A stretch of 50,412 nt of DNA from Victivallales bacterium (GTDB taxonomy: Bacteria > Verrucomicrobiota > Lentisphaeria > Oligosphaerales > Oligosphaeraceae), in NCBI GenBank assembly GCA_017548425.1, contig JAFZAB010000073.1, forward strand, positions 1-50,412. The letters run 5' to 3'. Positions 26,327 to 39,326 of this stretch are shown here, in pieces. The notes under the pieces were generated by a model. It made no database searches and was not told the origin of the DNA. It saw only the letters and a list, made by a program, of their open reading frames with translations. The translations under genes were made by a program, and so were the position numbers. How positions within the stretch are numbered: position 1 is the first letter of the stretch; each line of letters opens with the position of its first letter.

Positions 26327-27415
26327 CTATTTCCACAATATTTCCGGCTTCCCCATGACGAGACGGCGGACCGTGATTCCATCCTTTTCCAAAGCGTCTT
26401 CGTTGCGGCGCGGCTCGTCCCACGGATGCTTGGAGAGCGTGTATTTGGAATGATGGACGGTGATGACCTCCTTAGCGCCGAGGTCATGGCAAACCTGCGG
26501 CAGTTCAGACGGAAGCGTATGAATCTGCGCCCAGTCTTTATTGTATTGTCCATTCTCCAATATGGCAAGGTCGATTCCGGAAAATTTCTCGCCAATCTCC
26601 TTGAAATGCGGGCCATAGCCACTGTCGCCGCCAATGTAGATTTGTCGTCCGGAAGGCGTCTTCAGCAGGAAGGATGCCCATAGCGCCTTGTTGCTGCGCA
26701 ATCCGCGGCCGGAGAAATGACGGGCAGGCAGGCAGTGGACAGTGAAACCATCGCCCAAATCGACGTTTTCCTGCCAGTCCAGTTCGGTAAGCATCGTTTC
26801 GGGAAAGCCCCATCGCTCAAAATGCTCGCCGACGCCCAACGGCAGCAGAACACGCGTGATGGAATCCTTCAATTCCGTTACAGCCTGATAATCCAGATGA
26901 TCCCAATGGTCGTGGCTGATGAGCAGCCAGTCGCATGGCGGCATGTCCGACGGCTTCCACAAGTCCGTGCCCGGATACGGCTTGTTCACCCATCTGACGG
27001 GCGCGGCCTTGTAGAAGACAGGATCCACCAGAAGCCGTTTTCCTTCGATTTGAAGAAGATAGGACGAATGGCCGAACCAGACGATGCAATCGTTTTCACG
27101 GGAAAGCGTCTGCAAGTCTGTCTTTTCTGAAGGCACTGGCTGAGTGGGCTTTGTGTATGTGCGGGACTGCGTGACAAACTCCCACATCGTCGCCAGCCCA
27201 CTTTTGGAGGACGTCATCACCTCCGTCTTCACAGGATAGCGGAACTCGCCATCGACATAGTTCGGCGACTGGCGAATGCGCTCCAGACGCTTTCCTGACG
27301 GCAACCGTCCGAACGATGGCGTGTGCAGGAATACGCATCCCCCCAGAAGGAATGCCAACGGCACAACGATAAAGATGATGAGCATTTTGCGTTTCTTGAA
27401 GAGGTTGCGTTTCAT
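26327..27415 (-). CDS. NAPE-PLD/UlaG-like metallo-beta-lactamase-fold lipoprotein
   Basis: 362 residues. The N-terminus KMLIIFIVVPLAFLLGGC is a lipoprotein signal with a lipobox-like LGGC. The metal site is LLISHDHWDHLDY (H-x-H-x-D-H), with further ligands in LPARHFSGRG, YIGGDSGYG and ITVHHSKY. The sequence follows the NAPE-PLD branch, whose members hydrolyse N-acyl-phosphatidylethanolamine or related phosphodiesters. It would sit on the periplasmic face of a membrane. It is the last of the eleven-gene MerR-led run, 34 bp after a membrane-anchored flavodoxin. Its link to the redox genes is not obvious; a membrane-lipid or lactone hydrolase role is inference. Confidence 0.8.
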   Translation of the reverse strand: MKRNLFKKRKMLIIFIVVPLAFLLGGCVFLHTPSFGRLPSGKRLERIRQSPNYVDGEFRYPVKTEVMTSSKSGLATMWEFVTQSRTYTKPTQPVPSEKTDLQTLSRENDCIVWFGHSSYLLQIEGKRLLVDPVFYKAAPVRWVNKPYPGTDLWKPSDMPPCDWLLISHDHWDHLDYQAVTELKDSITRVLLPLGVGEHFERWGFPETMLTELDWQENVDLGDGFTVHCLPARHFSGRGLRSNKALWASFLLKTPSGRQIYIGGDSGYGPHFKEIGEKFSGIDLAILENGQYNKDWAQIHTLPSELPQVCHDLGAKEVITVHHSKYTLSKHPWDEPRRNEDALEKDGITVRRLVMGKPEILWK

Positions 27416-27449
27416 TTCAAATCAAAGCGAGACATTTCGTTCAATGTTT

Positions 27450-28076
27450 TCAGAAAATGCCGTTCAGCCACGTGATGACATCATCCTCCGTGTGATGCGA
27501 TGGCACACCGACATCAAGGCGGCGTTCAATCTGGTTCGAACCGCGCGCAACGAATCCTTTGAGCACCTTTGCCTCGGGACAGGCTGCCTGGACATCCTGT
27601 TCGAAGCGGCCCGCTCCACCGCCGCCATGTGTGCAGAAGGGCACGACGGTCTTGCCTGCAAGCGGATTTGCTTTCAGGAACGTGGCGATCGGCGGAGCGT
27701 ATGTACCATACCAGATTGGCGAACCAATGAAGACAATCTCGCAGTCTTCAGGAATGGTGACAGGCTGTATTTCCCTTGGCGTTTCCTCCTTCCGCTCACG
27801 GTTGGCTTCCTTGAGCGTGTCGGAATAGGCATCGGGATATGGATTCACGGGAATCACCTCGACCAGTTCGCCGTCAACATGCTTCTGGATCCATTTGGCG
27901 ACAAGCGCCGTGTTCTGGACTTTCGACTGTGAAAAATAGACGATAGCGGCCTTGCCTGGCAGTTTGGCGGTGACTGCAATGGTCGCTTCTGTGTTGCGGC
28001 TGTTGAGCAGACGGCATCCGACGGTTATGATGCCAACGAGAACAATGACGATAATGACGATGATTGCAATTTTCAT
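27450..28076 (-). CDS. Membrane-anchored flavodoxin
   Basis: 208 residues from ATG 28076; the frame extends three codons to a TTG, which is less likely. An N-terminal hydrophobic segment (IAIIVIIVIVLVGIITVGC) is either a membrane anchor or a lipoprotein signal. The flavodoxin domain follows: AAIVYFSQSKVQNTALVAKWI (FMN phosphate loop), VFIGSPIWYGTYAPPIATFL (isoalloxazine loop with Trp and Tyr) and PFCTHGGGGAGRFEQDV. It carries electrons, presumably outside the cytoplasm. It lies 31 bp after the permease gene in the MerR operon and resembles the flavodoxin at the other end (34442). Confidence 0.8.
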   Translation of the reverse strand: MKIAIIVIIVIVLVGIITVGCRLLNSRNTEATIAVTAKLPGKAAIVYFSQSKVQNTALVAKWIQKHVDGELVEVIPVNPYPDAYSDTLKEANRERKEETPREIQPVTIPEDCEIVFIGSPIWYGTYAPPIATFLKANPLAGKTVVPFCTHGGGGAGRFEQDVQAACPEAKVLKGFVARGSNQIERRLDVGVPSHHTEDDVITWLNGIF

Positions 28077-28107
28077 GGCTTTCAATGAGTTTGTGATATT
28101 TGTTCTG

Positions 28108-29013
28108 TCAAAATGGGATGATGTTGATGATCATTCCTGTCACAAGCGAAAAGAGCAGGACGAAAAGGATGTAGAGCGCGAAGTTTTTCGCGCCGAGGAC
28201 AATCTTCAACGCACCAAGATTCGTGATTTTCGTAGCGGGACCTGTGACCATGAATGCGGTCGCGGCTCCAAGGCTCATTCCTTCGGCAAGCCAGTCGCGC
28301 AACATGGGAACCGTGCCGCCGCCGCAGACGTAGAGCGGGACGCCGACCGTCGCCGCCAATAGAAGGCCGAACTGCTTTTGCGGGCCGAAGAGTTTACCAA
28401 CCAAGTCGGCGGGAATATACCGTTGAAAGAGCGCGGAAAGAAGGATACCGAGTGCAAACCACGGTCCGGTCGCCTTCAAATTGCGTCCGAGATTGAACAA
28501 AAAGCGCAGGAACGGATTCGGATGCGTGTCATGCCCGGCTCTTTCAGAAAAACCTTTGAAATTGAAGAAGTTCTTCTCTTTGAAGCAATAGTGAAGCAAC
28601 GCACCGGCGGCGACACCGCACAGAAAGCACGTGATGACGCGAATGCACAATGCGGTGCGCCCCAATGCGACGCTGTACATAATCAGCTGCGGGTTCAGCA
28701 GGATGGAGCTCATCATGAAGGCCGCCAGAAAATCCTCCTTGATTCCCTTCTGCGAAAAGGATGCGCAGATGGGAATCGTCCCGTACATGCACAACGGCGA
28801 TGCGATGCCAAGGAGGCTGGCGGCTATCCAGCCGACCGGCCCCGTCAAATGCTGCCCAAGGCGGGCGCAGAGACGGTGGATGCCTTCCTTGGCGAACACC
28901 GACACAAGCGACCCCAGTACCATGCCGAGCACCCAGTACCAGAATATCTGGTGGAACTGCAGGTCGGCATAGTACCAGAGATAAATCGCCTCGCCCTTAA
29001 GAAGTTCAAACAT
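28108..29013 (-). CDS. PF03773 (SO_0444/ArsP-type) permease
   Basis: 301 residues with about eight membrane helices. The paired motifs GIASPLCMYGTIPICASFSQKG and GVPLYVCGGGTVPMLRDWL, each with a Cys beside a Gly-rich turn, are characteristic of the PF03773 permease family; relatives export Cu/Zn (SO_0444) or trivalent organoarsenicals (ArsP). In this operon of flavodoxins and reductases it could export a reduced or toxic small molecule or metal. It lies 6 bp after the DUF362 gene and 31 bp before a flavodoxin, so co-transcription is very likely. The start lacks a strong ribosome-binding site and may be coupled to upstream translation. Confidence 0.8.
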   Translation of the reverse strand: MFELLKGEAIYLWYYADLQFHQIFWYWVLGMVLGSLVSVFAKEGIHRLCARLGQHLTGPVGWIAASLLGIASPLCMYGTIPICASFSQKGIKEDFLAAFMMSSILLNPQLIMYSVALGRTALCIRVITCFLCGVAAGALLHYCFKEKNFFNFKGFSERAGHDTHPNPFLRFLFNLGRNLKATGPWFALGILLSALFQRYIPADLVGKLFGPQKQFGLLLAATVGVPLYVCGGGTVPMLRDWLAEGMSLGAATAFMVTGPATKITNLGALKIVLGAKNFALYILFVLLFSLVTGMIINIIPF

Positions 29014-29019
29014 AGAGGA

Positions 29020-30051
29020 TTACTTGTCCAGATTGACAAGACGGTAGCGGCGGTGATAGAGGCCGAGGGTATCCGTGTATTCCAGAATATGGCGGCCCTG
29101 CTGGCGGTCTATGCGCGCCTTAAGACTTGCGGAATCGGGAGCCTGCCAGACCTTGTCAATGCACGCCTGGTCGAGGGCCAGCGGGTCGAGGGAGGCGAGA
29201 ATGCCGATGTCGTGCATATCCGGTTCGGCGGGATTGGCGTTGCAGTCGCAATCGACGCTCAGGCGGTTCATCACGTTGACGAACGCGATGTTGCGTCCAT
29301 TGTCCATCGCCTGGCAGACGGCCACTGCGGCCTCGCCCATCGCCTCCAGAAAGGGAATCTGCTTTTCGGTGGCCCAGTCGATGCTGCTGGCGCTTCTGCC
29401 GCCTGTATGGATGATCGCCTTTCCGGATTTTTCAGCGCTGGTGCCGCTGCCGAAACCGATGGAGAGGTTCTTGAGTGCGCCGCCGAATCCGCCCATCTGA
29501 TGACCTTTGAAGTGGGACAGTACCAGATAGGCCCCATAGTTCTTGAAATGCGATCCGACGTAGTCTTCCTTTAAGACTTTGCCGTTCACGGGAAGCGTCA
29601 TGTAGCCTTCTTCGTCCAGCAGGTCGAACGGCGCGATGTCGAGATAACCGCGTTCCTTGACGGCCTGGTGGTGCAAGGCGACCGTGGCGCGACTGCCGCC
29701 GTACGCGGTGTTGCATTCCACGATCGTCCCGTTGACCTTCTGAACCAAATCTTTGATAAGCGCGGGGCGCAGGTGGTTGGTTTTCGCCGATTCGCCCGTG
29801 CTGATCTTCACGCCGACCTTGCCGTTCGGTTTCCAGCCGAGAGCCTCGTAGGCGCGGACAAGCCCTGCGGAGGAGATGTCTTTGGTGAAATAGACGACGG
29901 GCGCCATCTCATCGGTCGTTTCATAGTAAGTGACTGTTTCCGTTGCGGCAGGCTGTGTCGCCGCCGTCTGCTTGGCTGAATTGTCCACCTTGGCCTTGCT
30001 GCAACTAAACAGCATTACCGCCGAGAGAATCATCCATAAATGCTTTTTCAT
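29020..30051 (-). CDS. DUF362 lipoprotein lacking the ferredoxin domain
   Basis: 343 residues. MKKHLWMILSAVMLFSCSK is a lipoprotein signal. The body is DUF362: GKVGVKISTGE, HLRPALIKDLV, ECNTAYGGSRA, YLVLSHFKGHQMGGFGGALKNLSIG and DIGILASLDPLALDQACIDKVW. Many DUF362 proteins end with a 2[4Fe-4S] ferredoxin domain, which is absent here although a CDCNANP stretch occurs. The function of the family is unresolved. An envelope location next to exported flavodoxins suggests a redox or metal role. GGAG precedes the ATG; the upstream neighbour ends 23 bp away. Confidence 0.8.
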   Translation of the reverse strand: MKKHLWMILSAVMLFSCSKAKVDNSAKQTAATQPAATETVTYYETTDEMAPVVYFTKDISSAGLVRAYEALGWKPNGKVGVKISTGESAKTNHLRPALIKDLVQKVNGTIVECNTAYGGSRATVALHHQAVKERGYLDIAPFDLLDEEGYMTLPVNGKVLKEDYVGSHFKNYGAYLVLSHFKGHQMGGFGGALKNLSIGFGSGTSAEKSGKAIIHTGGRSASSIDWATEKQIPFLEAMGEAAVAVCQAMDNGRNIAFVNVMNRLSVDCDCNANPAEPDMHDIGILASLDPLALDQACIDKVWQAPDSASLKARIDRQQGRHILEYTDTLGLYHRRYRLVNLDK

Positions 30052-30074
30052 TGTTTTTCTCCGTGTGTTGTTTT

Positions 30075-31214
30075 TTATTTGAAAGTATCTGCGATTTCCT
30101 TCATATATTTGGGAATATCAATGGATTGCGGACATTTCTTCTTGCACGCTCCGCAGGCGACGCAGGACGAGGCGCGTTTATCTTCCGACATGGCGTCATA
30201 GACAAGTTTTGCGTGGAAAAGAGGCAGTCCGCCTTTGACTTGATTGAGCAACGCGAGATTGCGCGGGATGTCCACTCCGACCGGGCACGGCGAGCAATAG
30301 CGGCAGCCTGTGCAGGGAACCGCACCGGATTTCCGGTAGGCGGCCAGTGCTTCCGCGATGACTTTCTGCTCCGCATCCGTCAACGGTTCAAATGGCGAGA
30401 ACGTGCGCAGATTGTCTTCCATCTGCTCCAACGCCGACATGCCGGAAAGCACAATCTGTACATTCGGCAGCGACGCGACATAACGCAATCCCCATGAAGC
30501 GGCGCTGACGTTTGGATTTGCTTTTTCGAAAACCTTTTTCGCTTCCGGGGAGAGACGAACCAGCGTGCCGCCCTTCAGCGGTTCCATCACGCTGACAGGG
30601 ATGCCGAGCTTGGTCAAAACGTCATATTGTTCCTTTGAACGGCAAAGTTCCCAGTCCAGATAATTGAGCTGGATCTGAACAAGTTCCCATGGATACGACT
30701 CGGCGATTTTCTTCAAGGTCTCCAGTTCTCCATGGAAGGAAAATCCTAAACGGCGGATCTTTCCTTCCGCCTGCATTTTCTTCATGAAATCCAGCGTCTT
30801 GAACTGTTTCGCCTTTTCCCAATGCGTCTCATTGAGCCAATGCATGAAATAGAAATCAAAATACCCTGCGCGGGTGCGCTCCAGCTGTTCGTTGAATATC
30901 CGCTCGTTGTCGGCTTCCGATTTCATCATGACAATCGGCATCTTGGTCGTGAGATAATAGCTCTCGCGCGGATACTTGGAGAGGACGCGACCAACAAACC
31001 TCTCGCTTTCACCATCATGGTACATGTAGGCGGTGTCGAAATAGTTGCATCCGGCCGCCATCGCCTTGGCAACCATCTTTTCCGCCGTCTCCTCATCGAC
31101 TTTTCCGTCCTTCTCCGGGAGACGCATCATGCCGAAGCCCAGCCGCGGCATGGTCATGTCCGTATTTCTGTAGGGGCGCCGCGTCACCTGCGTTACTTTT
31201 TCTGCATTGTCCAT
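30075..31214 (-). CDS. Aldo/keto reductase with C-terminal 2[4Fe-4S] domain
   Basis: 379 residues. The AKR barrel starts RLGFGMMRLPEKDG, has the catalytic YFDTAYMYHDGESE (Asp, Tyr) and LTTKMP (Lys), and continues FMHWLNE and VSVMEPLKGG. Residues ~275-370 carry ferredoxin-like cysteines CTGCRYCSPCPVG and CVACGACKKKCPQ. This domain pairing is common in anaerobes, in enzymes thought to use ferredoxin-type electrons to reduce carbonyls. No signal peptide, so cytoplasmic. AAAGGAGG precedes the ATG. It lies within the MerR operon, fitting removal of reactive carbonyls. Confidence 0.9.
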   Translation of the reverse strand: MDNAEKVTQVTRRPYRNTDMTMPRLGFGMMRLPEKDGKVDEETAEKMVAKAMAAGCNYFDTAYMYHDGESERFVGRVLSKYPRESYYLTTKMPIVMMKSEADNERIFNEQLERTRAGYFDFYFMHWLNETHWEKAKQFKTLDFMKKMQAEGKIRRLGFSFHGELETLKKIAESYPWELVQIQLNYLDWELCRSKEQYDVLTKLGIPVSVMEPLKGGTLVRLSPEAKKVFEKANPNVSAASWGLRYVASLPNVQIVLSGMSALEQMEDNLRTFSPFEPLTDAEQKVIAEALAAYRKSGAVPCTGCRYCSPCPVGVDIPRNLALLNQVKGGLPLFHAKLVYDAMSEDKRASSCVACGACKKKCPQSIDIPKYMKEIADTFK

Positions 31215-31317
31215 TAATCCTCCTTTTTCCTTGCAGTCGCGACGTTTGCGAACGGCGCCAACATTGCGACTGAAAGGGTGTTTTTAATGAAATCACATCT
31301 TGGAATAATAAATCACT

Positions 31318-31968
31318 TCAAATATGCTTTCCAAGTTGATAGGCTTTTTCGGGAAATTCCGTATGGGCGATCGCGCCGACCGGCCAGACGCCCGGAGCGA
31401 TGATCTGGCCGGCATCCGTCCAGCCAAGATATTTCAGAAGCACGTCATAATGGGATTTGATGGGCACGGCTTCCGAGGCGGCCGTATTGGCGTAGGTCAT
31501 CAACAGGACGGCTTTCTTGCGAACGTGAATCGAACCGTTGATGGCGTAGAAACGATCGATGACCGCCTTGAGCTGGGAGGAGATTCCGAAATAGTACATC
31601 GGCGTGGCGAACACCACGCAGTCCGCATCGACGATGTGCTTGCGGACGAATTCAAAATCATCCTTGAAAACGCATGGCCCGTTCATGCCGCAGGTGTTGC
31701 AGGCAATGCAGGCATGGACTTTTTTGAAAGCCGCGTCAAACCGCTCGACGGAATGCCCCGCCTCCTTTGCGCCACGGGTGAAATAGTCGGCCAGCGTGGC
31801 GGAATTGCCGCCTTTGCGCGGGCTTCCGGTCAGTACAAGTATCTTCATCTTGCCGTTATTCCTTTTCATATTGTCTGCCTGGTTTGGTTCGGCAAGCCCC
31901 GTCGTGCCGATGACGGCGGAGCCGGCCGTGGCCATGGTCAGATTGCGGATGAATTCGCGCCGATTCAT
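31318..31968 (-). CDS. Exported NADPH-dependent FMN reductase-like flavoprotein (Tat-like signal)
   Basis: 216 residues. The N-terminus NRREFIRNLTMATAGSAVIG has a twin-Arg and hydrophobic stretch, suggesting Tat export with FMN already bound. The mature domain is of the flavodoxin-fold FMN reductase/iron-sulfur flavoprotein type: KILVLTGSPRKGGNSATLA, the Cys cluster ACIACNTCGMNGPC, and VVFATPMYYFGISSQLKAVIDRF. GGAG precedes the ATG. The gene lies third from last of the flavodoxin-fold genes in the MerR run, with closest relatives in the operon at 32002 and 33815, which lack export signals. Confidence 0.85.
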   Translation of the reverse strand: MNRREFIRNLTMATAGSAVIGTTGLAEPNQADNMKRNNGKMKILVLTGSPRKGGNSATLADYFTRGAKEAGHSVERFDAAFKKVHACIACNTCGMNGPCVFKDDFEFVRKHIVDADCVVFATPMYYFGISSQLKAVIDRFYAINGSIHVRKKAVLLMTYANTAASEAVPIKSHYDVLLKYLGWTDAGQIIAPGVWPVGAIAHTEFPEKAYQLGKHI

Positions 31969-32001
31969 TGTTCATTCTCCATGATTCATAATCAGTAAAT
32001 A

Positions 32002-32691
32002 TCATTTGGCGACATTGTTTGTCTGAATGTCGAGATGTTGCGTGTTCGCCTGATGGACAAGACGTTTTCCGAGATCGTAAGCCTGCTGCTCATATTCGGC
32101 ATAGTGTTCCTCACGCATGCTATCAAGAATCTTGGCGAACTCAAGATTGAAGGGATAACGTTCAAAATCAGGAAACGCCGAGAGGCCTCGGAAATACAAT
32201 ACTTCCTGCGGACCGAGCAACTCCAATGATTTTGCAGCCACGCCTAGTGTCTGCGCATAACTCATGTTTGCAAAAAGTTCGTCATTCATGACGTGCATCG
32301 TGTAAATGGTGGCACATTGTATCTTTTTCTTCAGAGTGGAACTGCCGGCGTTGACATAATCCAACGGAGCAAATAGCAGACGCTCCATGAAGGCCCGAGT
32401 CAAAGCGGTCTGATAGTGAAAATAGACTGGTGTGCCGACGACCAGAATTTCGGAGGCAAGCGTCTCCTCAAGCACAGGTCGCAAGTCATCCCGCAGAGCA
32501 CACAATCCACCGCATGTATTCCCCTTGATCTTGCAGGCAAGGCAACTGATACAACCTGAAAATTTCAGGTCACGCAAGTGAACAAGTTTGGTTTCGCATC
32601 CCGATTCTTCAACACCTTCCATGACTTTTTTCAACAAAGAAACGGTGTTGCGGTTTTTTCGAGGACTTCCATTGATGATCATTGCTTTCAT
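32002..32691 (-). CDS. NADPH-dependent FMN reductase-like (iron-sulfur flavoprotein-like)
   Basis: 229 residues from ATG 32691. The open frame runs 56 codons further upstream, but that part overlaps the neighbouring gene and is not protein-like, whereas AAGGAT lies correctly before 32691. KAMIINGSPRKNRNTVSLL is the FMN-phosphate loop. GCISCLACKIKGNTCGG is the cysteine motif seen in iron-sulfur flavoproteins, though compact. LVVGTPVYFHYQTALTRAFMERLLF is the isoalloxazine-binding region. Cytoplasmic. The C-terminal ~70 residues are extended and helical. Part of the MerR operon. Confidence 0.85.
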   Translation of the reverse strand: MKAMIINGSPRKNRNTVSLLKKVMEGVEESGCETKLVHLRDLKFSGCISCLACKIKGNTCGGLCALRDDLRPVLEETLASEILVVGTPVYFHYQTALTRAFMERLLFAPLDYVNAGSSTLKKKIQCATIYTMHVMNDELFANMSYAQTLGVAAKSLELLGPQEVLYFRGLSAFPDFERYPFNLEFAKILDSMREEHYAEYEQQAYDLGKRLVHQANTQHLDIQTNNVAK

Positions 32692-32740
32692 CGGCTTATA
32701 TCCTTGATCTTGTGTTTCTCGGTGAGTGAAAAGGATATCG

Positions 32741-33778
32741 TTATTTCGTCGCGTCGGCGTATGCCTTGTCATCGACAGGCTCGAGCCATTCATTGCGTCC
32801 GCCTTCGCCCGGAGCCTCCAATGCAATGTGCTGGAACCAGCAGTCGGGAGCCGCGCCATGCCAGTGCTTGACGCCCGCGGGAATGTTCACCGTATCGCCT
32901 TTGCGGATGCGCCGTGCGGGCTTGCCCCACTCCTGATAATAGCCTTCGCCAGCCGTGACGATGAGAATCTGGCCACCGCCTTTGGTCGCATGGTGGATAT
33001 GCCAGTTGTTGCGGCAAGCCGGTTCAAACGTCACACCGAAAGCAGGGACTTGATCCAATGTGAGTTTATGAAGGAAACTTCTGCCGATAAAGTACTTCGC
33101 AAAGGCAGTATTCGGCTGGCCAACAGGAATCGCCGACCAGTCGGACGGCAGCTTCGCGGGATCTTCCGGACAGCGCACGCGGGCGACAATCGCCTTCGCC
33201 TGTTCATCCGTCACACCATTGACTTTCGCGACGCCGATGTGTGATTTCATCTGTGGCTCTGTCTCAGGCCGCGCCGCCAAAGCGGCGACGGTGGCGATTT
33301 CACGAGTCCGCCAATCGACGTTGTCCCGTGCGAAAATGTCGCCGAAAAGATGCGCCTTGAGATATTCGTCCAGTTGCGGATGGAAGTCGAACAACGGCCC
33401 TTTCACCTCACGCCCGCAGAGTTTCGTCTGGTTGGCGGCGCCGAAAACAATGGCCTTGCCGACGGGCGGCGGATTCGGGGCGCGTCCTTCGGCGGGATGC
33501 TTTTCGCCGGCGACTTTCATCAATGTCGCAGCGGCGTTGAGAGCACGCGGGAAGCCGCAGTAGGCGTAGAGCTGTCCGACCAGTTCCTTGGCTTCATTCA
33601 AGGTAAGTCCTGCTTCAAAACCTGCGTTCAGCGCGGCGGCCAATGCGGCCTGTTCGCCACGTGCGACGGCGGCGGACAAATCGATGATGGCAAGTTCCTT
33701 TTTGGTAAGCGTGCTGTCCATGGCGAATGCTCCTTGTAACGTAAACAGAATAGCTAAAAGGATGATGGTTTTCTTCAT
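32741..33778 (-). CDS. Exported carboxymuconolactone decarboxylase-cupin fusion
   Basis: 345 residues from ATG 33778, where a signal peptide begins (KKTIILLAILFTLQGAFA); a TTG four codons upstream is possible but less likely. Residues ~20-110 and ~125-215 are two carboxymuconolactone decarboxylase (CMD/AhpD-like) repeats (ELVGQLYAYCGFPRALNAAATLM; REIATVAALAA). Residues ~240-335 are a cupin: NNWHIHHATKGGGQILIVTAGEGYYQEWG and IPAGVKHWHGAAPDCWFQHIA, with the metal-binding His set. CMD-cupin fusions are known and often lie beside flavodoxins and aldo/keto reductases, but their substrate is not established. The exported location is notable. Part of the MerR operon. Confidence 0.85.
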   Translation of the reverse strand: MKKTIILLAILFTLQGAFAMDSTLTKKELAIIDLSAAVARGEQAALAAALNAGFEAGLTLNEAKELVGQLYAYCGFPRALNAAATLMKVAGEKHPAEGRAPNPPPVGKAIVFGAANQTKLCGREVKGPLFDFHPQLDEYLKAHLFGDIFARDNVDWRTREIATVAALAARPETEPQMKSHIGVAKVNGVTDEQAKAIVARVRCPEDPAKLPSDWSAIPVGQPNTAFAKYFIGRSFLHKLTLDQVPAFGVTFEPACRNNWHIHHATKGGGQILIVTAGEGYYQEWGKPARRIRKGDTVNIPAGVKHWHGAAPDCWFQHIALEAPGEGGRNEWLEPVDDKAYADATK

Positions 33779-33814
33779 AAAAAAATCCAATAGTGGGTGA
33801 TTTTTTAATAAACG

Positions 33815-34438
33815 TTATCGGATGAAATGCATCGGCTGCCAGGGTTCATCAGCGGGGCGCGGGATGGCGTCTTCACGCTTGAGGTTCTTCAGGAGCCATG
33901 CCATGTTGCGTCCAAGGGTGCGCATCGTCTGCATTCCCTCGGTATCCTTCTCGCATTCTCCCTCTTCACGTCCGAACACAATATTCCAATATTGTGACGT
34001 GACAACGGGGCAGTTCAACATCTCGAACAGCATGTTCATGCACTGGTAGGCGGCCGTCGAACCACCGCGACGGCACACCGCGATTGAGGCGGCGGGCTTG
34101 CCTGCGACGTGCATTCGCCCCGCCACACAGACACGTTGCCATACGGCTAGAAACGCGCCGTTGGGCTGGCCATAGTAGGTGGGCGCTCCGATTACGAACG
34201 CATCGGCTCCAGGCAACTTCTCGACAATACGGTTGGCGACATCATCGTCGAATATGCAACGGCCAAGCGACTTCTCCATGCATTGAAAGCAGGCAATGCA
34301 GCCGCGTACAGGCTTTTTGCCAATCCAAACCGTTTCGGTTTCGATTCCCTCGGTTACAAGCGTGTCAGCGACTTCCTTCAACGCCCGGGCCGTGTTGCCA
34401 TTCGCACGAGGGCTACCGTTGATGAGTAGAACTTTCAT
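33815..34438 (-). CDS. NADPH-dependent FMN reductase-like flavoprotein
   Basis: 207 residues, AAAAGGAG before the ATG, no signal peptide. KVLLINGSPRANGNTARAL (FMN loop), GCIACFQCMEKSLGRC (Cys cluster) and FVIGAPTYYGQPNGAFLAVWQRV (flavin-contacting loop) place it in the flavodoxin-fold reductase family with iron-sulfur flavoprotein-like cysteines. It starts 3 bp after the upstream flavodoxin stop, so translation is tightly linked. Probably moves electrons from NAD(P)H or ferredoxin to small acceptors in the cytoplasm. Confidence 0.85.
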   Translation of the reverse strand: MKVLLINGSPRANGNTARALKEVADTLVTEGIETETVWIGKKPVRGCIACFQCMEKSLGRCIFDDDVANRIVEKLPGADAFVIGAPTYYGQPNGAFLAVWQRVCVAGRMHVAGKPAASIAVCRRGGSTAAYQCMNMLFEMLNCPVVTSQYWNIVFGREEGECEKDTEGMQTMRTLGRNMAWLLKNLKREDAIPRPADEPWQPMHFIR

Positions 34439-34441
34439 CGT

Positions 34442-35041
34442 TTATTCTCCTTTTATTCCCAATGACTTCAGCCATTCGGCAACGTTCTGCTGGACGGTTT
34501 TCGCATCCTTTTGCGCGGTCGCGCCGCGAATCGCGAGCCCTTTCTGCTCGATCTTCGCATTCGGATAGGCTTTGGCAAGTTTGCTGGCGGTGCTTCCCAG
34601 GCCCGAACCTTCATGCGTGCAGAAGGGCAGGATGCGCTTTCCATCGGCTTTCGCCTTGTCCAGAAACGAATAGACGACCATCGGGGCGCTACCCCACCAG
34701 TTCGGATATCCGAGATAAATCGTGTCGTAGGCGGCAAGATCTGGAGCGGTTCCCACAAAGGCTGGACGCGCCTTTGCCTGAAGTTCCTTCTTCGCGCGGT
34801 TGATGCATTCGTCGTATTTCACGGGATATGCTTCGGCCTCCTTGATTTCCCAAATGGACGCACCAGTCTGTCGTGCGATCTCCTTGGCGACTTTGGCCGT
34901 GTTCCCTTCCTTGATGACACCCACGGAGTAGTTCTCACCCGTGTGCGAGAAATAGATGACAATGGATTTTTCGGCGGCAAACGCGCCGCTGCTCAAAATG
35001 GCTGTTGTAATCATTGCGATGATTCCTTTATAAAATTTCAT
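34442..35041 (-). CDS. Secreted flavodoxin
   Basis: 199 residues. GAGGAG precedes the ATG. The N-terminus KGIIAMITTAILSSGAFAAE is a signal peptide. The mature domain is a flavodoxin of the PF12682 type: SIVIYFSHTGENYSVG, NTAKVAKEIARQTGASIWEI, IYLGYPNWWGSAPMVVYSFLDKA and ILPFCTHEGSGLGST. It is the first structural gene after merR (42 bp gap). Periplasmic flavodoxins are uncommon because FMN is loaded in the cytoplasm; either folded export or flavin export would be required. Confidence 0.85.
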   Translation of the reverse strand: MKFYKGIIAMITTAILSSGAFAAEKSIVIYFSHTGENYSVGVIKEGNTAKVAKEIARQTGASIWEIKEAEAYPVKYDECINRAKKELQAKARPAFVGTAPDLAAYDTIYLGYPNWWGSAPMVVYSFLDKAKADGKRILPFCTHEGSGLGSTASKLAKAYPNAKIEQKGLAIRGATAQKDAKTVQQNVAEWLKSLGIKGE

Positions 35042-35083
35042 GATGACTCCTCTTCTTTAAATATGTTGAATGGGAAAAAAGCC

Positions 35084-35554
35084 TTACTTGTCTTTCTCCG
35101 GAGAGACATTCGGCTCCTGAAGATTGGCCGGATTGCATCTATCTTTGGATTTGCTGGCAAGAAGCTCCTCATAGTAATGTTTCTTGTATTCAAGGACTTC
35201 CATCTGACGATGCAATTCGTCCAACTGCTCCTTGAGTTTTTTCTCCTGCTCAAAAATGAGAGCCGCGCGTTCAGGAATGGTCGAATCCCCCTCGCGGCAC
35301 ATCTCGATGTAGCGGCGCACCTCCGTGACCGGCAGCCCCGTGGAACGAAGGCAATGGACAATCTTCAGCCAGGCGAGATTGTAGTCGGAGAAGAGACGGA
35401 TGTTGCCGCTAGTCCGCTCCACATCGGGGATGAGCCCCGCATTGTCATAATATCGGACGGCATACGTCGTCAGATTCATTTTCTCCGCCATTTCCTTTAC
35501 GGTGTATCGTGGTGTCCGATCGGTCAGACCCGCGATGGATGATTCTTTTTTCAT
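35084..35554 (-). CDS. MerR-family transcriptional regulator
   Basis: 156 residues. The winged helix-turn-helix is RYTVKEMAEKMNLTTYAVRYYDNAGLIPDVERTSGNIRLFSDYNLAWLKIVHCLRSTG-like, typical of MerR proteins, followed by a dimerising coiled coil (residues ~95-135, EQEKKLKEQLDELHRQMEVLEYKKHYYEELL-like). No metal-binding Cys pair is visible at the C-terminus, so the signal may be an electrophile or aldehyde, as for the AdhR/NmlR branch, rather than a metal. AGGAAAG precedes the ATG. It is the first gene of the minus-strand run down to 26327 and probably activates it from its own promoter. Confidence 0.9.
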   Translation of the reverse strand: MKKESSIAGLTDRTPRYTVKEMAEKMNLTTYAVRYYDNAGLIPDVERTSGNIRLFSDYNLAWLKIVHCLRSTGLPVTEVRRYIEMCREGDSTIPERAALIFEQEKKLKEQLDELHRQMEVLEYKKHYYEELLASKSKDRCNPANLQEPNVSPEKDK

Positions 35555-35936: not shown

Positions 35937-36692
35937 ATGAAAAGAACCATCATTCAGACTGTCGTGATAGCGGCAATGGTTGCTATCCTTTCATCCTGTG
36001 TATCAACCGTTTCGAACACTCCGCCGTCCGGCTTCGTCCATCTAGCCGAAGCCGTGCCGGACGCAATTCTCGAAATCCGCTACTATTCCACTTACAATTT
36101 CGTCGGAGATCGTATCGACGGTTATGAACAGCCGACAGCGCTTCTCACGGTGGAGGCCGCCAAGGCGTTGAAGGCCGTGAGCGATGACGTGAAGAAACAG
36201 GGCTACCGCCTGAAGATCTTCGATGCCTACCGTCCCCAGCGGGCCGTCACCCACTTCATGAACTGGGCGAAGGATACGGGCGACATACGGATGAAGGCCT
36301 ATTTCTATCCGAATTTGGACAAATCCGTCCTGTTTGCGCAAGGCTATATAGCCGAAAAATCGGGCCATAGCAGAGGAAGCACCGTTGATTTGACACTGTT
36401 CGACATGGCGACGGAGAAGGAGGTCGATATGGGCGGCACATTCGACTGGTTCGGCAAGGAAAGCCATCCCGACTGGTGCGGCAATCCCGAAACAGGCGAA
36501 TACACGGGCGAGTTTGCGGGAGATACGCCGGCGAAGGACGGCAAGATCAACGCCACTCAGTTCCGCAACCGGATGATTCTCCGCCAGGCGATGATGCGCC
36601 ACGGCTTCAAGCCTCTTGAGGAGGAATGGTGGCACTTCACCCTGAAGAACGAGCCGTACCCCGACACCTATTTCACGCATTCTGTCAAATGA
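35937..36692 (+). CDS. VanX-like D-Ala-D-Ala dipeptidase lipoprotein
   Basis: 251 residues from ATG 35937, fixed by AGGAG at 35923-35927; the frame is open upstream. The start is a lipoprotein signal ending ILSSC (Cys21). The zinc-peptidase motifs of the VanX family (M15D) are intact: SGHSRGSTVDLTL (His144, Asp151) and EWWHF (Glu230, His233); the Arg region FDAYRPQRAV is also present. VanX-type enzymes cleave D-Ala-D-Ala. Envelope-anchored versions such as this usually recycle peptidoglycan dipeptides rather than confer vancomycin resistance, and no vanH/vanA genes are here. It is followed at 73 bp by alsD. Confidence 0.9.
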   Translation: MKRTIIQTVVIAAMVAILSSCVSTVSNTPPSGFVHLAEAVPDAILEIRYYSTYNFVGDRIDGYEQPTALLTVEAAKALKAVSDDVKKQGYRLKIFDAYRPQRAVTHFMNWAKDTGDIRMKAYFYPNLDKSVLFAQGYIAEKSGHSRGSTVDLTLFDMATEKEVDMGGTFDWFGKESHPDWCGNPETGEYTGEFAGDTPAKDGKINATQFRNRMILRQAMMRHGFKPLEEEWWHFTLKNEPYPDTYFTHSVK

Positions 36693-36765: not shown

Positions 36766-37482
36766 ATGAAAGCAAGAACAAAATTTACGCAGATATCTTT
36801 ATTCAGCGTTCTGCTCAGCGGACGCTATGGCGGAGTCATCAGCGTCGCTGAACTGAAAAAATTGGGGAGCATGTCGATCGCCTCCATGGATCGGCTGGAC
36901 GGTGAAATGCAGATGATCGACGGAGTGGTTTATCAGGCGTGCGCCGACGGTCATGTCTATCTGCCTGAGGATGACGCAACCATCCCCTTTGGCACAATCG
37001 CCGAATTTCATGCCGAGCAAAGTATCCAGCTTGGCGACATCCCAAGTTATGAACTTTTCGAAGAGTATATGGCGGAATGCTGTCCGCAGGAAAATGTCCC
37101 GCTTGCAATCCACTTCACGGGAGATTTCCGTCGAATGAAAGTCCGCGCGGTTGCCCGTCAGGAGCGGGATGGACTCGGTCTGGCGGAAGCGGCGAAAAAC
37201 GAAGCCATATTCGATTTGCCTGATTGTTCCGGCGATCTGGTGGGATTTCGACTTCCGGGATATGTCAGCGGAGTCAATGCGCCCGGATGGCATCTCCACT
37301 TCGTGGACACGGCGCGACAGCACGGAGGCCATGTGGTCAACTTCTCACTGCGCAACGGAGAACTGCGCTTCTGCCATGCGGATGATTATCAGATACATCT
37401 CCCCGCTCCCGAAAAGCTTTCCGGACTTGATTTGGGCCGAAACTGGAGCAACGAGTTGAAACGGGCTGAGGCAGAACGATGA
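36766..37482 (+). CDS. Alpha-acetolactate decarboxylase
   Basis: 238 residues from ATG 36766, 13 nt after GGAGG (36748-36752); a TTG at 36754 is too close to it. Converts acetolactate to acetoin. FSVLLSGRYGGVISVAELK, SMDRLDGEMQMIDGVVYQ, PGYVSGVNAPGWHLHFVDTARQHGGHV are diagnostic. Zinc ligands His176, His178 and His189 keep the H-x-H-x10-H spacing of Bacillus AlsD. No signal peptide. No alsS or butanediol dehydrogenase is nearby; the substrate could come from branched-chain amino-acid synthesis. It overlaps the next gene by 4 bp (ATGA), implying translational coupling to the PheC-C45 fusion. Confidence 0.95.
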   Translation: MKARTKFTQISLFSVLLSGRYGGVISVAELKKLGSMSIASMDRLDGEMQMIDGVVYQACADGHVYLPEDDATIPFGTIAEFHAEQSIQLGDIPSYELFEEYMAECCPQENVPLAIHFTGDFRRMKVRAVARQERDGLGLAEAAKNEAIFDLPDCSGDLVGFRLPGYVSGVNAPGWHLHFVDTARQHGGHVVNFSLRNGELRFCHADDYQIHLPAPEKLSGLDLGRNWSNELKRAEAER

Positions 37483-39326
37483 TGACAATCCGAAGAATAT
37501 CCTCGGCGGCATTTCGTGTCGGAGCGCTTCTTGTTTTGATGCTGCTGTTTTCGGGATGCGCCACTCCCGCGGATGCGCTTTCTTCTGTGCGGGAGCGCGG
37601 CGTCCTCCGCGTCGGCTCGACCGGGGACTACAAGCCGATGTCGTTCCGCAATCCCGCAACGGGAAAGTACGAGGGCTTTGATGATGCGCTTGCAAAGGAT
37701 CTGACACACAGTCTCGGCGTGAGGCTGGAATACGTGCCCACCAGCTGGCCGACCTTGATGCAGGATACCCTTGACCGCAAGTTCGACCTTGCGCTCTGCG
37801 GGATTACCATAACTCCAGAGCGACAAAAACATGCGTTGATGTCCGTGGGCTACCTCGGAAACGGCAAAACCATTCTCTGCCGCGCGGAAGATGCAAAGAA
37901 GTATGTCACGCTTGCCGCCATTGACCGACCCGAAATTCGCGTAATGGAGAATCCCGGCGGGCTTAACGAGAAGTTCGCACGAAAGAATCTGCCGCACGCA
38001 ACGTTGATCATCCACCCTGTCAACGAGGAGATTCCCGGTCTTATCGCCTCCGGCAAGGCGGATGTGATGATCACGGAGATCATGGAGGCAGCGTATTACT
38101 GCTCTCAGGATACACGTCTAGCCGCGCCGTTGCTGGATTCACCATTCACGCATGGGGAACTGGGAGCTCTCCTGCCGCCGGGAAACGAGGCTCTGCGAGA
38201 TTACGTCAACGATTTTATCAACAAGGAGCGGCAAAGCGGACGGCTGGATGAGCTGAAGTCGATTTATCTGGACGGCGGAGGCCGCAGCACGCTCTCCATA
38301 TTGCGTCTCAAGGGAACGTGGTCCGAGATGGGGCAGCAGTACGGAGCCGCCATGAGAGCGTCGATGCAGAAGGTTCTTGATTTTGCAAATCGGCGTGCCA
38401 CCGAGGCTTCGGACCACTATCTTCTGCCTCACGGAATTCCCTGCGGTATCACTTTCCTCGATCAGTTCTTTGCCGGCGTCGCGGCTGGTTCTGGACTCTC
38501 CATCAAAGACCTCATCCGCATCAATGGCGTCGAAGTGGCATACGGGGAGGAGTTGGTTCGTCTTTTCGGCAGCGGGGCCGCAGGAAAGTGTTCCGCGTTG
38601 GCTTTGTTCGGGGAAAAGACTCGGAATGGCGGCATGATTTTCGGGCGCAACTACGACTGGCTGCCCAGCTTCGCCGAACTTGGACTGGTGTTGACGGTTT
38701 TCCATCCAACGGATTCAGATATGGATTTCGCCATGCTGAATTATCCGGGATGTTTTTATCTTACAAGCGGCATGAACTCGGCGGGCGTCTTTATTGAACT
38801 CAACTCCGGCATGTTTGCCTCCGCCGACTTTCATCCCGAAGAACTTCACAATGCGTGGAGTCTCTGGCATGTCCTGACACAAGCCAAAAGCACCGACCAA
38901 GCGGTTCGAATCTTGAACTCGCTTCCATCGCACAGCGCCTACATCATCGGGATCGCAGACTCAAGCAAGAGCGTTTCCTTTGAATGGGAACGCCGCAGCT
39001 CCGCCGCACTGTCGTCTTCGAATGCCATCGGAATTCTGGCCATGACCAACCATTTTGTCCAGCCCGAATGGCGCAATCTGCCAAGTGCCTCTGAAGGTGG
39101 TCTCCTCTCATCCGAAAGTCGTCTCCGCGCACTGCGGCTTCTCGCAGAGAAAATCCCGTCCCGCTCCGCCGATGTGGAAACGATGAAGCGGATTATCTCC
39201 ATGCCAGTGGAAGAAGGCGGAGCCATGTGGCAGGGGACATTGTTCCAAATCATTGCCATTCCAGAAAAGAAAACAATGCTGATAAAGTGCCGAAATCAGG
39301 ATGAATGGACAGAATTCACCTTTTGA
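37479..39326 (+). CDS. Fusion: cyclohexadienyl dehydratase-like (PheC) domain + C45 Ntn-hydrolase, lipoprotein
   Basis: 615 residues. The N-terminus ends LFSGC (Cys27), a lipobox. Residues ~35-265 follow PheC closely: GVLRVGSTGDYKPMSFRN, YVPTSWPTLMQD, FDLALCGITITPERQ, NPGGLNEKFARKNLPHA and DVMITEIMEAAYY (Glu203 at the conserved acid). PheC is a periplasmic dehydratase of prephenate/arogenate that evolved from solute-binding proteins. Residues ~275-615 are a C45 (acyl-CoA:isopenicillin N acyltransferase-like) domain: MGQQYGAAMR, then KCSALALFGEKT (Cys371, expected self-cleavage nucleophile), GGMIFGRNYDW and FYLTSGMNSAGV. Self-cleavage before Cys371 would separate a PheC-bearing subunit from the hydrolase. 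Overlaps alsD by 4 bp. Confidence 0.85.
   Translation: MMTIRRISSAAFRVGALLVLMLLFSGCATPADALSSVRERGVLRVGSTGDYKPMSFRNPATGKYEGFDDALAKDLTHSLGVRLEYVPTSWPTLMQDTLDRKFDLALCGITITPERQKHALMSVGYLGNGKTILCRAEDAKKYVTLAAIDRPEIRVMENPGGLNEKFARKNLPHATLIIHPVNEEIPGLIASGKADVMITEIMEAAYYCSQDTRLAAPLLDSPFTHGELGALLPPGNEALRDYVNDFINKERQSGRLDELKSIYLDGGGRSTLSILRLKGTWSEMGQQYGAAMRASMQKVLDFANRRATEASDHYLLPHGIPCGITFLDQFFAGVAAGSGLSIKDLIRINGVEVAYGEELVRLFGSGAAGKCSALALFGEKTRNGGMIFGRNYDWLPSFAELGLVLTVFHPTDSDMDFAMLNYPGCFYLTSGMNSAGVFIELNSGMFASADFHPEELHNAWSLWHVLTQAKSTDQAVRILNSLPSHSAYIIGIADSSKSVSFEWERRSSAALSSSNAIGILAMTNHFVQPEWRNLPSASEGGLLSSESRLRALRLLAEKIPSRSADVETMKRIISMPVEEGGAMWQGTLFQIIAIPEKKTMLIKCRNQDEWTEFTF

Follow-up and report, generated by a model that had tools for sequence, protein, structure and literature searches.

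The stretch of DNA analysed here, referred to as the window, comprises all 50,412 nucleotides of contig JAFZAB010000073.1 from the Victivallales bacterium assembly GCA_017548425.1. It contains a gene in which a PheC-like domain, whose relatives produce phenylalanine or a precursor of it, is joined to a C45-type hydrolase domain behind a predicted lipoprotein signal. We propose, with a probability of roughly 0.5, that the gene product is a pair of tethered enzymes working outside the cytoplasm. The PheC-like half is predicted to be an enzyme of the cyclohexadienyl dehydratase (CDT) type with a changed carboxylate pocket, and the C45 half a self-cleaving amide hydrolase. This pairing belongs to an extensive network of fusions around the same PheC subfamily. 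The features of the fusion gene are listed below.

37479..39326, + strand: PheC-like/C45 fusion, predicted lipoprotein of 615 amino acids in an open reading frame (domain searches, homologues)
37479..37559, + strand: signal peptide with lipobox FSGC and predicted lipidated Cys27 (sequence)
37569..38276, + strand: PheC/CDT-fold part, residues 31–266 (PDB comparison)
38085..38087, + strand: codon of Glu203, counterpart of the PaCDT general acid Glu173 (alignment)
38277..39323, + strand: region carrying the C45 domain (C45 profile matches)
38589..38591, + strand: codon of Cys371, the predicted nucleophile, at which self-cleavage is also predicted (the same in all 13 aligned C45 domains)

Domain architecture of the fusion protein

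The initial annotation had read from the letters alone a lipoprotein signal, a CDT-like domain with its motifs and Glu203, and a C45 domain with Cys371; domain searches and alignment bore out all of these. The top PDB matches of the PheC part were cyclohexadienyl dehydratases (5jos, E = 1.4e-70, residues 31–261), and in Pfam the part falls into SBP_bac_3 (5.2e-27). The motifs TGDYKP, SWP and NPGGLNE lie at positions 48, 89 and 158, the last of them reading NPGGTNE in the CDTs among the PDB matches. Residues 272–615 form a complete C45 Ntn hydrolase: the NF040521 profile (C45_proenzyme) matched over its full model (positions 1–313 of 313) across residues 278–600, with an E-value of 1e-41 and 143 bits against a cut-off of 85, and the Pfam family AAT matched at 9e-15. 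Besides the nucleophile, Gly389–Asp393 (GRNYD) and Asn524–His525 (TNH motif) are invariant in all 13 aligned domains. A direct sequence search of the C45 part against the PDB gave no match up to E 5; a profile search matched isopenicillin N acyltransferase (2x1c/2x1d), with which the Cys and Asp of the C45 domain align. The source annotations of such proteins, 'cyclohexadienyl dehydratase' or 'C45 family autoproteolytic acyltransferase/hydrolase', cover one half only.

A search for the same fusion elsewhere found PheC–C45 proteins in at least 12 further protein clusters (P0001–P0012, 63–96% identity, P0003 being partial), and genome G014 also encodes the full fusion, at 67% identity. Because these share the architecture, a sequencing error as its origin is very unlikely, and an assembly or frameshift artefact joining two genes was rejected.

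Conservation of the PheC active site

We aligned 177 PheC domains, from 111 proteins, 64 genome loci, the window and a stand-alone gene on contig C62 of the host genome, with redundancy kept. Nine active-site residues of PaCDT are listed in PMC10520331, eight of which are Tyr22, Trp60, Lys100, Asn128, Asn133, Asn152, Thr169 and Glu173. These eight are kept in at least 175 of the 177 domains, the exceptions being gaps and a single Thr for Asn152. Glu173, with which Glu203 of the fusion aligns, is present in 177/177, and Arg85 in 176/177. On eight of nine residues we file the fusion's PheC as CDT-like rather than as a CDT. Conservation is high throughout the subfamily (mean pairwise identity 78%; 84 of 224 columns conserved at ≥98.5%), which is why the enrichment of active-site columns was tested. 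Columns that conserved which also carry the letter of PaCDT and JbCDT number 45 of 224, and they include eight of the nine active sites (P = 1e-5); with 122 de-duplicated rows, there are 41 such columns of 224 (P = 5e-6).

These data bear on the suggestion, made in the initial annotation, that the PheC fold could have reverted to binding a ligand. With the catalytic residues kept, and with CDTs rather than just binding proteins as top relatives, that suggestion is disfavoured. A related explanation is that the domain serves as a non-catalytic sensor, binding a small ligand and switching the fused hydrolase in the manner of the substrate-binding-protein (SBP) domain of MltF. It is possible, though rather doubtful, given that the catalytic set including Glu173, Lys100 and Trp60 keeps the CDT letter in 175–177 of 177 domains, that PheC stands alone in 36 of the 177 rows, and that a true prephenate dehydratase (PDT) occurs as an alternative partner of the acetolactate decarboxylase (ALDC) domain described below. 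We retain the catalytic reading: the catalytic half of the site is strongly constrained while two carboxylate ligands have been lost, and the PheC domain most likely turns over a substrate, perhaps one other than free prephenate.

Separately, a Cys at PaCDT position 77 is found in 173 of 175 members of the subfamily and is absent from the three CDT references. In the fusion (Cys107, 37797–37799, and Cys134, 37878–37880), the Cys at position 77 may pair with that of the TILCR motif.

The PheC fusion network

The homologue set of the fusion protein consisted of the best 120 of 1212, with the best 8000 candidates scored. A PheC domain is present in 111 of these 120 proteins: it is followed by C45 in 12, lies at the C-terminus behind 93–834 other residues in 97, and is arranged otherwise in 2. 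Further partners, single or combined, are DUF3089, HAD phosphatase, DUF218, histidine phosphatase, alpha/beta hydrolase, VanX, flavodoxin and SLH, and a few N-terminal partner parts had no Pfam match. Genome loci add the combinations ALDC–PheC (L028), ALDC–LysM–PheC (L063) and LysM–PheC (L035). Nine enzyme-type domain families, C45 among them, are fused to this one subfamily, whose members are 65–72% identical across phyla and occur in gut bacteria either joined to many enzymes or alone. Some partners also occur as separate same-strand neighbours of PheC: VanX lies 40 bases upstream of it in L008, HAD follows it directly in L022, DUF218 overlaps with it in L027, and ALDC directly follows a HAD–PheC gene in L039. 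The neighbour lists are partial because the gene caller missed genes (it overlooked the fusion on L116 and recovered PheC itself at 44 of the 64 loci); the Pfam census of neighbours covered 40 of 52 selected genes plus two of L085, and the first 25 of 57 families. A C69 dipeptidase named by eye for P0037 was dropped for want of Pfam support.

A tree was built from 122 family rows, leaving out rows that shared a label at more than 93% identity as well as those shorter than 150 residues. The subfamily splits from the three CDTs with a Shimodaira–Hasegawa-like approximate likelihood ratio (SH-aLRT) support of 100. The fusion's PheC groups with P0002 and P0003 (97), and one group of 25 rows holds all 12 PheC–C45 rows (99). 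The partner labels require 60 parsimony changes (59 without the reference label), compared with a minimum of 20 and a shuffled mean of 84; 66 of the 122 inner branches are weak, and the starred branches alone force far fewer changes.

One explanation of this pattern is that the PheC-like domain is a passive module for stability or anchoring, distributed by recombination, whose active site has been kept through its recent spread. The approximately 60 partner changes, the 65–72% likeness across phyla and the 84 of 224 near-invariant columns are what it would lead one to expect. We nevertheless judge it unlikely, as active-site columns are over-represented among the invariant CDT-like columns (P 1e-5) and the domain also stands alone.

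The network also bears on the idea that PheC makes an aromatic product which the attached C45 acylates or deacylates. The initial annotation had raised the acylation of such a product, and the occurrence of both domains in one polypeptide in 12 other clusters speaks for it. Acylation found no support, and we consider the coupling improbable: C45 is one of the nine enzyme-type partners; the same-genus genomes G002 and G004 carry C45 (66–67%) and PheC (72–73%) as separate genes on different contigs; and C45 relatives without PheC account for 9 of the best 120 homologues and for 15 Lokiarchaeota loci. In addition, fusions of chorismate mutase and CDT (CM-CDT) are reported to gain no catalytic benefit from fusion (PMC10520331).

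Two observations concern the C45 domain itself. The Lokiarchaeota loci (L069–L083) encode stand-alone C45 proteins of 376–385 amino acids that are 22–27% identical to the fusion's C45. P0013 (C45 only) and P0002 (PheC–C45) have near-identical signal peptides in the alignment, a pattern that an in-frame gain or loss of PheC just after the signal would produce.

Neighbouring genes and the ALDC fusions

Two genes precede the fusion on the same strand.

35937..36692, + strand: VanX-like D-Ala-D-Ala dipeptidase with lipobox (domain matches)
36766..37482, + strand: acetolactate decarboxylase (ALDC) in which no signal peptide was seen and whose stop codon overlaps the start of the fusion (ATGA) (Pfam and profile matches)

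The resulting operon reads VanX (lipobox), ALDC (no signal) and PheC–C45; the listed reading frames of VanX and ALDC lie 61 bases apart. Both listed frames begin at TTG; for ALDC (36754), the ATG at 36766 matches the 238-amino-acid length of most relatives, and for VanX (35865), the ATG at 35937 is the likely start. P0105 and P0245 carry VanX domains, joined to PheC and to ALDC respectively, with which the window's VanX shares 70% identity.

Searching with the ALDC part of L028 retrieved 108 proteins of 301–872 amino acids, whose other parts were assigned by BLAST against reference parts. ALDC is alone in 32 of them and otherwise accompanied by VanX (27), HAD (17), VanY (5), M15_4 (4), PDT (3), HisPhos (2), M3 (2), NlpC (1), DUF218 (1), PheC (1) or unassigned parts (13). 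The parts common to the ALDC and PheC hubs are 82% (VanX), 54–61% (HAD), 45% (HisPhos) and 34% (DUF218) identical. Four shared families of 10 and 13 give a hypergeometric P between 0.024 (universe of 100) and 2e-7 (universe of 2000), values that are indicative only because the universe size was guessed. ALDC and VanX are fused in the 27 proteins counted above, ALDC and PheC in L028 with its 98% twin P0241 and in L063, and VanX and PheC in P0105, L048, L052 and L060. Every pair of the three is thus fused elsewhere, which we take as the strongest evidence that VanX, ALDC and the fusion in the window would share one function.

In three of the 108 proteins (P0254, P0322 and P0329), ALDC is joined to a full PDT domain, which is of another family than PheC (PF00800, E = 4e-62, 6e-55 and 3e-55) and has the TRF motif, taken to be catalytic. 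P0254 passes NF008865 (226 bits against 219) and the other two fall below it (197 and 189). The PDT parts of P0322 and P0329 are 87% alike, those of P0254 and P0322 50%. All three proteins start lipoprotein-like, and an exported PDT of this kind would be unusual.

When the window's own ALDC was the query, the best 120 of 346 matches were stand-alone ALDC. One of them, P0164, has a longest contig of 257,269 bases, a length shared with the fusion P0010, which may point to linkage. The idea that the window's operon is conserved was rejected: VanX, ALDC, flavodoxin, MerR and other parts were sought at L116–L123 (genomes G014, G002, G004, G016, G009 and G019), L005–L013, L041 and L085, and the sole match besides PheC and C45 themselves came from L008, where VanX adjoins PheC. 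A scan for promoters and terminators gave nothing usable.

Upstream and divergent from the VanX operon, the minus-strand genes at 26327–35554 are headed by a MerR regulator and include flavodoxins, FMN reductases, a cupin/CMD protein, an aldo-keto reductase with a ferredoxin domain, DUF362, an ArsP-type permease and a metallo-beta-lactamase-fold protein. This cluster looks like one for redox functions or detoxification.

Distribution and host

The fusion lies on contig C47 of a 4.9-Mb draft genome. Its named relatives are mostly rumen metagenome-assembled genomes of Lentisphaeria and Victivallales, and the host bacterium is likely a rumen inhabitant. Some match was found in 40 of 59 related genomes, mostly a distant one, and besides the host only G014 has the full fusion. 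Under a strict cut-off, a close PheC or C45 is present in 7 of 47 genomes of the order and the fusion in 2, the host's own included. The 64 PheC loci on genome contigs come from Lentisphaeria, Lachnospiraceae, Oscillospiraceae, Erysipelotrichaceae and others; two are from the named strains Clostridium aminophilum KH1P1 (L052, a rumen strain) and Butyrivibrio sp. LC3010.

The second, stand-alone PheC of the host, on C62, is 70% identical to the fusion's PheC. A metallophosphoesterase with PQQ-type repeats lies upstream of it, and a flavin-reductase-like gene and an alpha/beta hydrolase lie downstream. At L085 (7103–11765) the row of four genes runs in this order, which L010 keeps minus the reductase.

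Export and transport

By a simple pattern, a lipobox-like start was found in 77 of the 108 ALDC proteins and some signal-like start in 97; in the window's ALDC type the figures are 0 and 15 of 120. Signal-like starts were also found in 82 of 95 C-terminal PheC fusions and in 11 of 11 PheC–C45 proteins. The host has a PDT gene (PF00800) without a signal peptide, so the exported domain is not needed for phenylalanine synthesis, and PheC as the organism's sole route to this amino acid was rejected.

As Pfam labels the domain SBP_bac_3, it could also be an ordinary SBP of an ABC transporter, fused by chance. The host genome contains 16 permease matches (PF00528), none of them on C47 or C62, and both ordinary SBP matches (on C94 and C100) have a permease within 1 kb. 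A permease could be detected at 5 of the 64 PheC loci, many of which are short, and at 1 of these (L029) it lay within 1 kb of PheC, beside another SBP; this tblastn test used host permeases and detected two control permeases. With no adjacent permease and with CDTs as the closest relatives, an ABC-transporter SBP is disfavoured and very improbable.

Proposed function

In the catalytic reading, Glu203 would donate a proton to the departing hydroxyl group of prephenate, arogenate or a similar compound, and Cys371, having released itself by cleavage after Lys370, would hydrolyse N-acyl substrates. The fusion would be one product of a mix-and-match set of gut-bacterial enzymes, most of them predicted to be exported, in which PheC or PDT, ALDC, VanX/VanY, phosphatases, DUF218, DUF3089, alpha/beta hydrolases and C45 are fused or adjacent in many combinations. 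From biosynthetic intermediates and precursors that lysed neighbours release (prephenate or arogenate, D-Ala-D-Ala, phosphomonoesters and N-acyl amino acids), the set would make compounds fit for uptake. The family substrates of these enzymes are biosynthetic intermediates and precursors that leave cells by lysis, and the rumen is rich in lysis. Fusion would serve to co-export and co-anchor the activities, with no substrate channelling; this is the likely gain by analogy, because CM-CDT fusion brings no catalytic benefit (PMC10520331).

Several observations weigh against this proposal. The ninth active-site residue, Thr132, is Leu in 175 of 177 domains (Leu162 in the fusion), Lys198 is Leu in 167 of 177, and all 177 have Glu for Asp170 and Pro for Phe156. 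According to PMC10520331, the counterparts of Ser80, Arg85, Thr132 and Lys198 hold a carboxylate mimic in JbCDTCM (numbering by our own mapping, residue minus 27, derived from E200 = Glu173). As Thr132 and Lys198 are now Leu, the carboxylate pocket is changed, and the loss of these ligands suggests that prephenate may not be the substrate and that activity may be low. Tyr177 is kept, as in AncCDT-3, a poor enzyme in which this residue reportedly prevents Glu173 from adopting the competent rotamer (PMC7683729). Signal peptides were judged by a simple pattern. The window's ALDC has no signal peptide, seems to be cytoplasmic and is only 29–34% identical to the ALDCs of the fusions; VanX and ALDC were not found on the 13.7-kb fusion contig of G014; and the ALDC–PDT fusion was not found among 145 genomes related to that of Clostridium aminophilum. 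Finally, we infer the salvage role of the fusion and of the wider set from sequence.

Beyond the fusion itself, we tentatively suggest that gut bacteria run a combinatorial extracellular kit, built up through repeated fusion of domains, on intracellular metabolites, namely prephenate or arogenate (for PheC-like domains or PDT), acetolactate (for ALDC), D-Ala-D-Ala (for VanX/VanY), phosphomonoesters (for HAD and histidine phosphatases) and acyl amides (for C45). If so, the kit would feed on, or read, lysed neighbours, which would explain the export of PheC. PMC10520331 calls the export of CDT and chorismate mutase an enigma and proposes lysis sensing for CM-CDT. Lysis sensing is close to the salvage role, which remains our preferred choice, and processing of leaked intermediates offers a testable hypothesis for the enigma.

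Comparison with known systems

No description of PheC–C45, PheC–hydrolase, ALDC–VanX or ALDC–PDT fusions was found in open-licence PMC papers; in the literature found, chorismate mutase is the sole fusion partner of exported CDT, in nine species. The CM-CDT and CDT-CM proteins resemble the fusion in joining an exported CDT-type domain to a second enzyme (PMC10520331). They differ in that theirs is chorismate mutase, with all nine active-site residues present, in nine proteobacterial species, whereas the PheC-like subfamily has nine other partners and occurs in Lentisphaeria and Clostridia. In the fusion protein, neither chorismate mutase nor lytic transglycosylase gave a Pfam match at E 0.001.

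MltF is a lytic transglycosylase whose SBP domain probably switches the attached enzyme on binding a ligand. Unlike MltF, the fusion has no transglycosylase domain, and its SBP part is CDT-like with the general acid. Isopenicillin N acyltransferase is 17–18% identical to the fusion's C45, which belongs to a bacterial predicted lipoprotein with an N-terminal PheC domain. Compared with VanX/DdpX dipeptidases, the window's gene is VanX-like at 190 bits, below the VanX equivalog cut-off of 320.

In contrast to PaCDT and AncCDT-3, the subfamily has T132L, K198L, D170E and F156P nearly fixed and is often fused to unrelated enzymes. Here a fold that serves as a model for how enzymes arise from binding proteins carries a defined change of the pocket (T132L, K198L).

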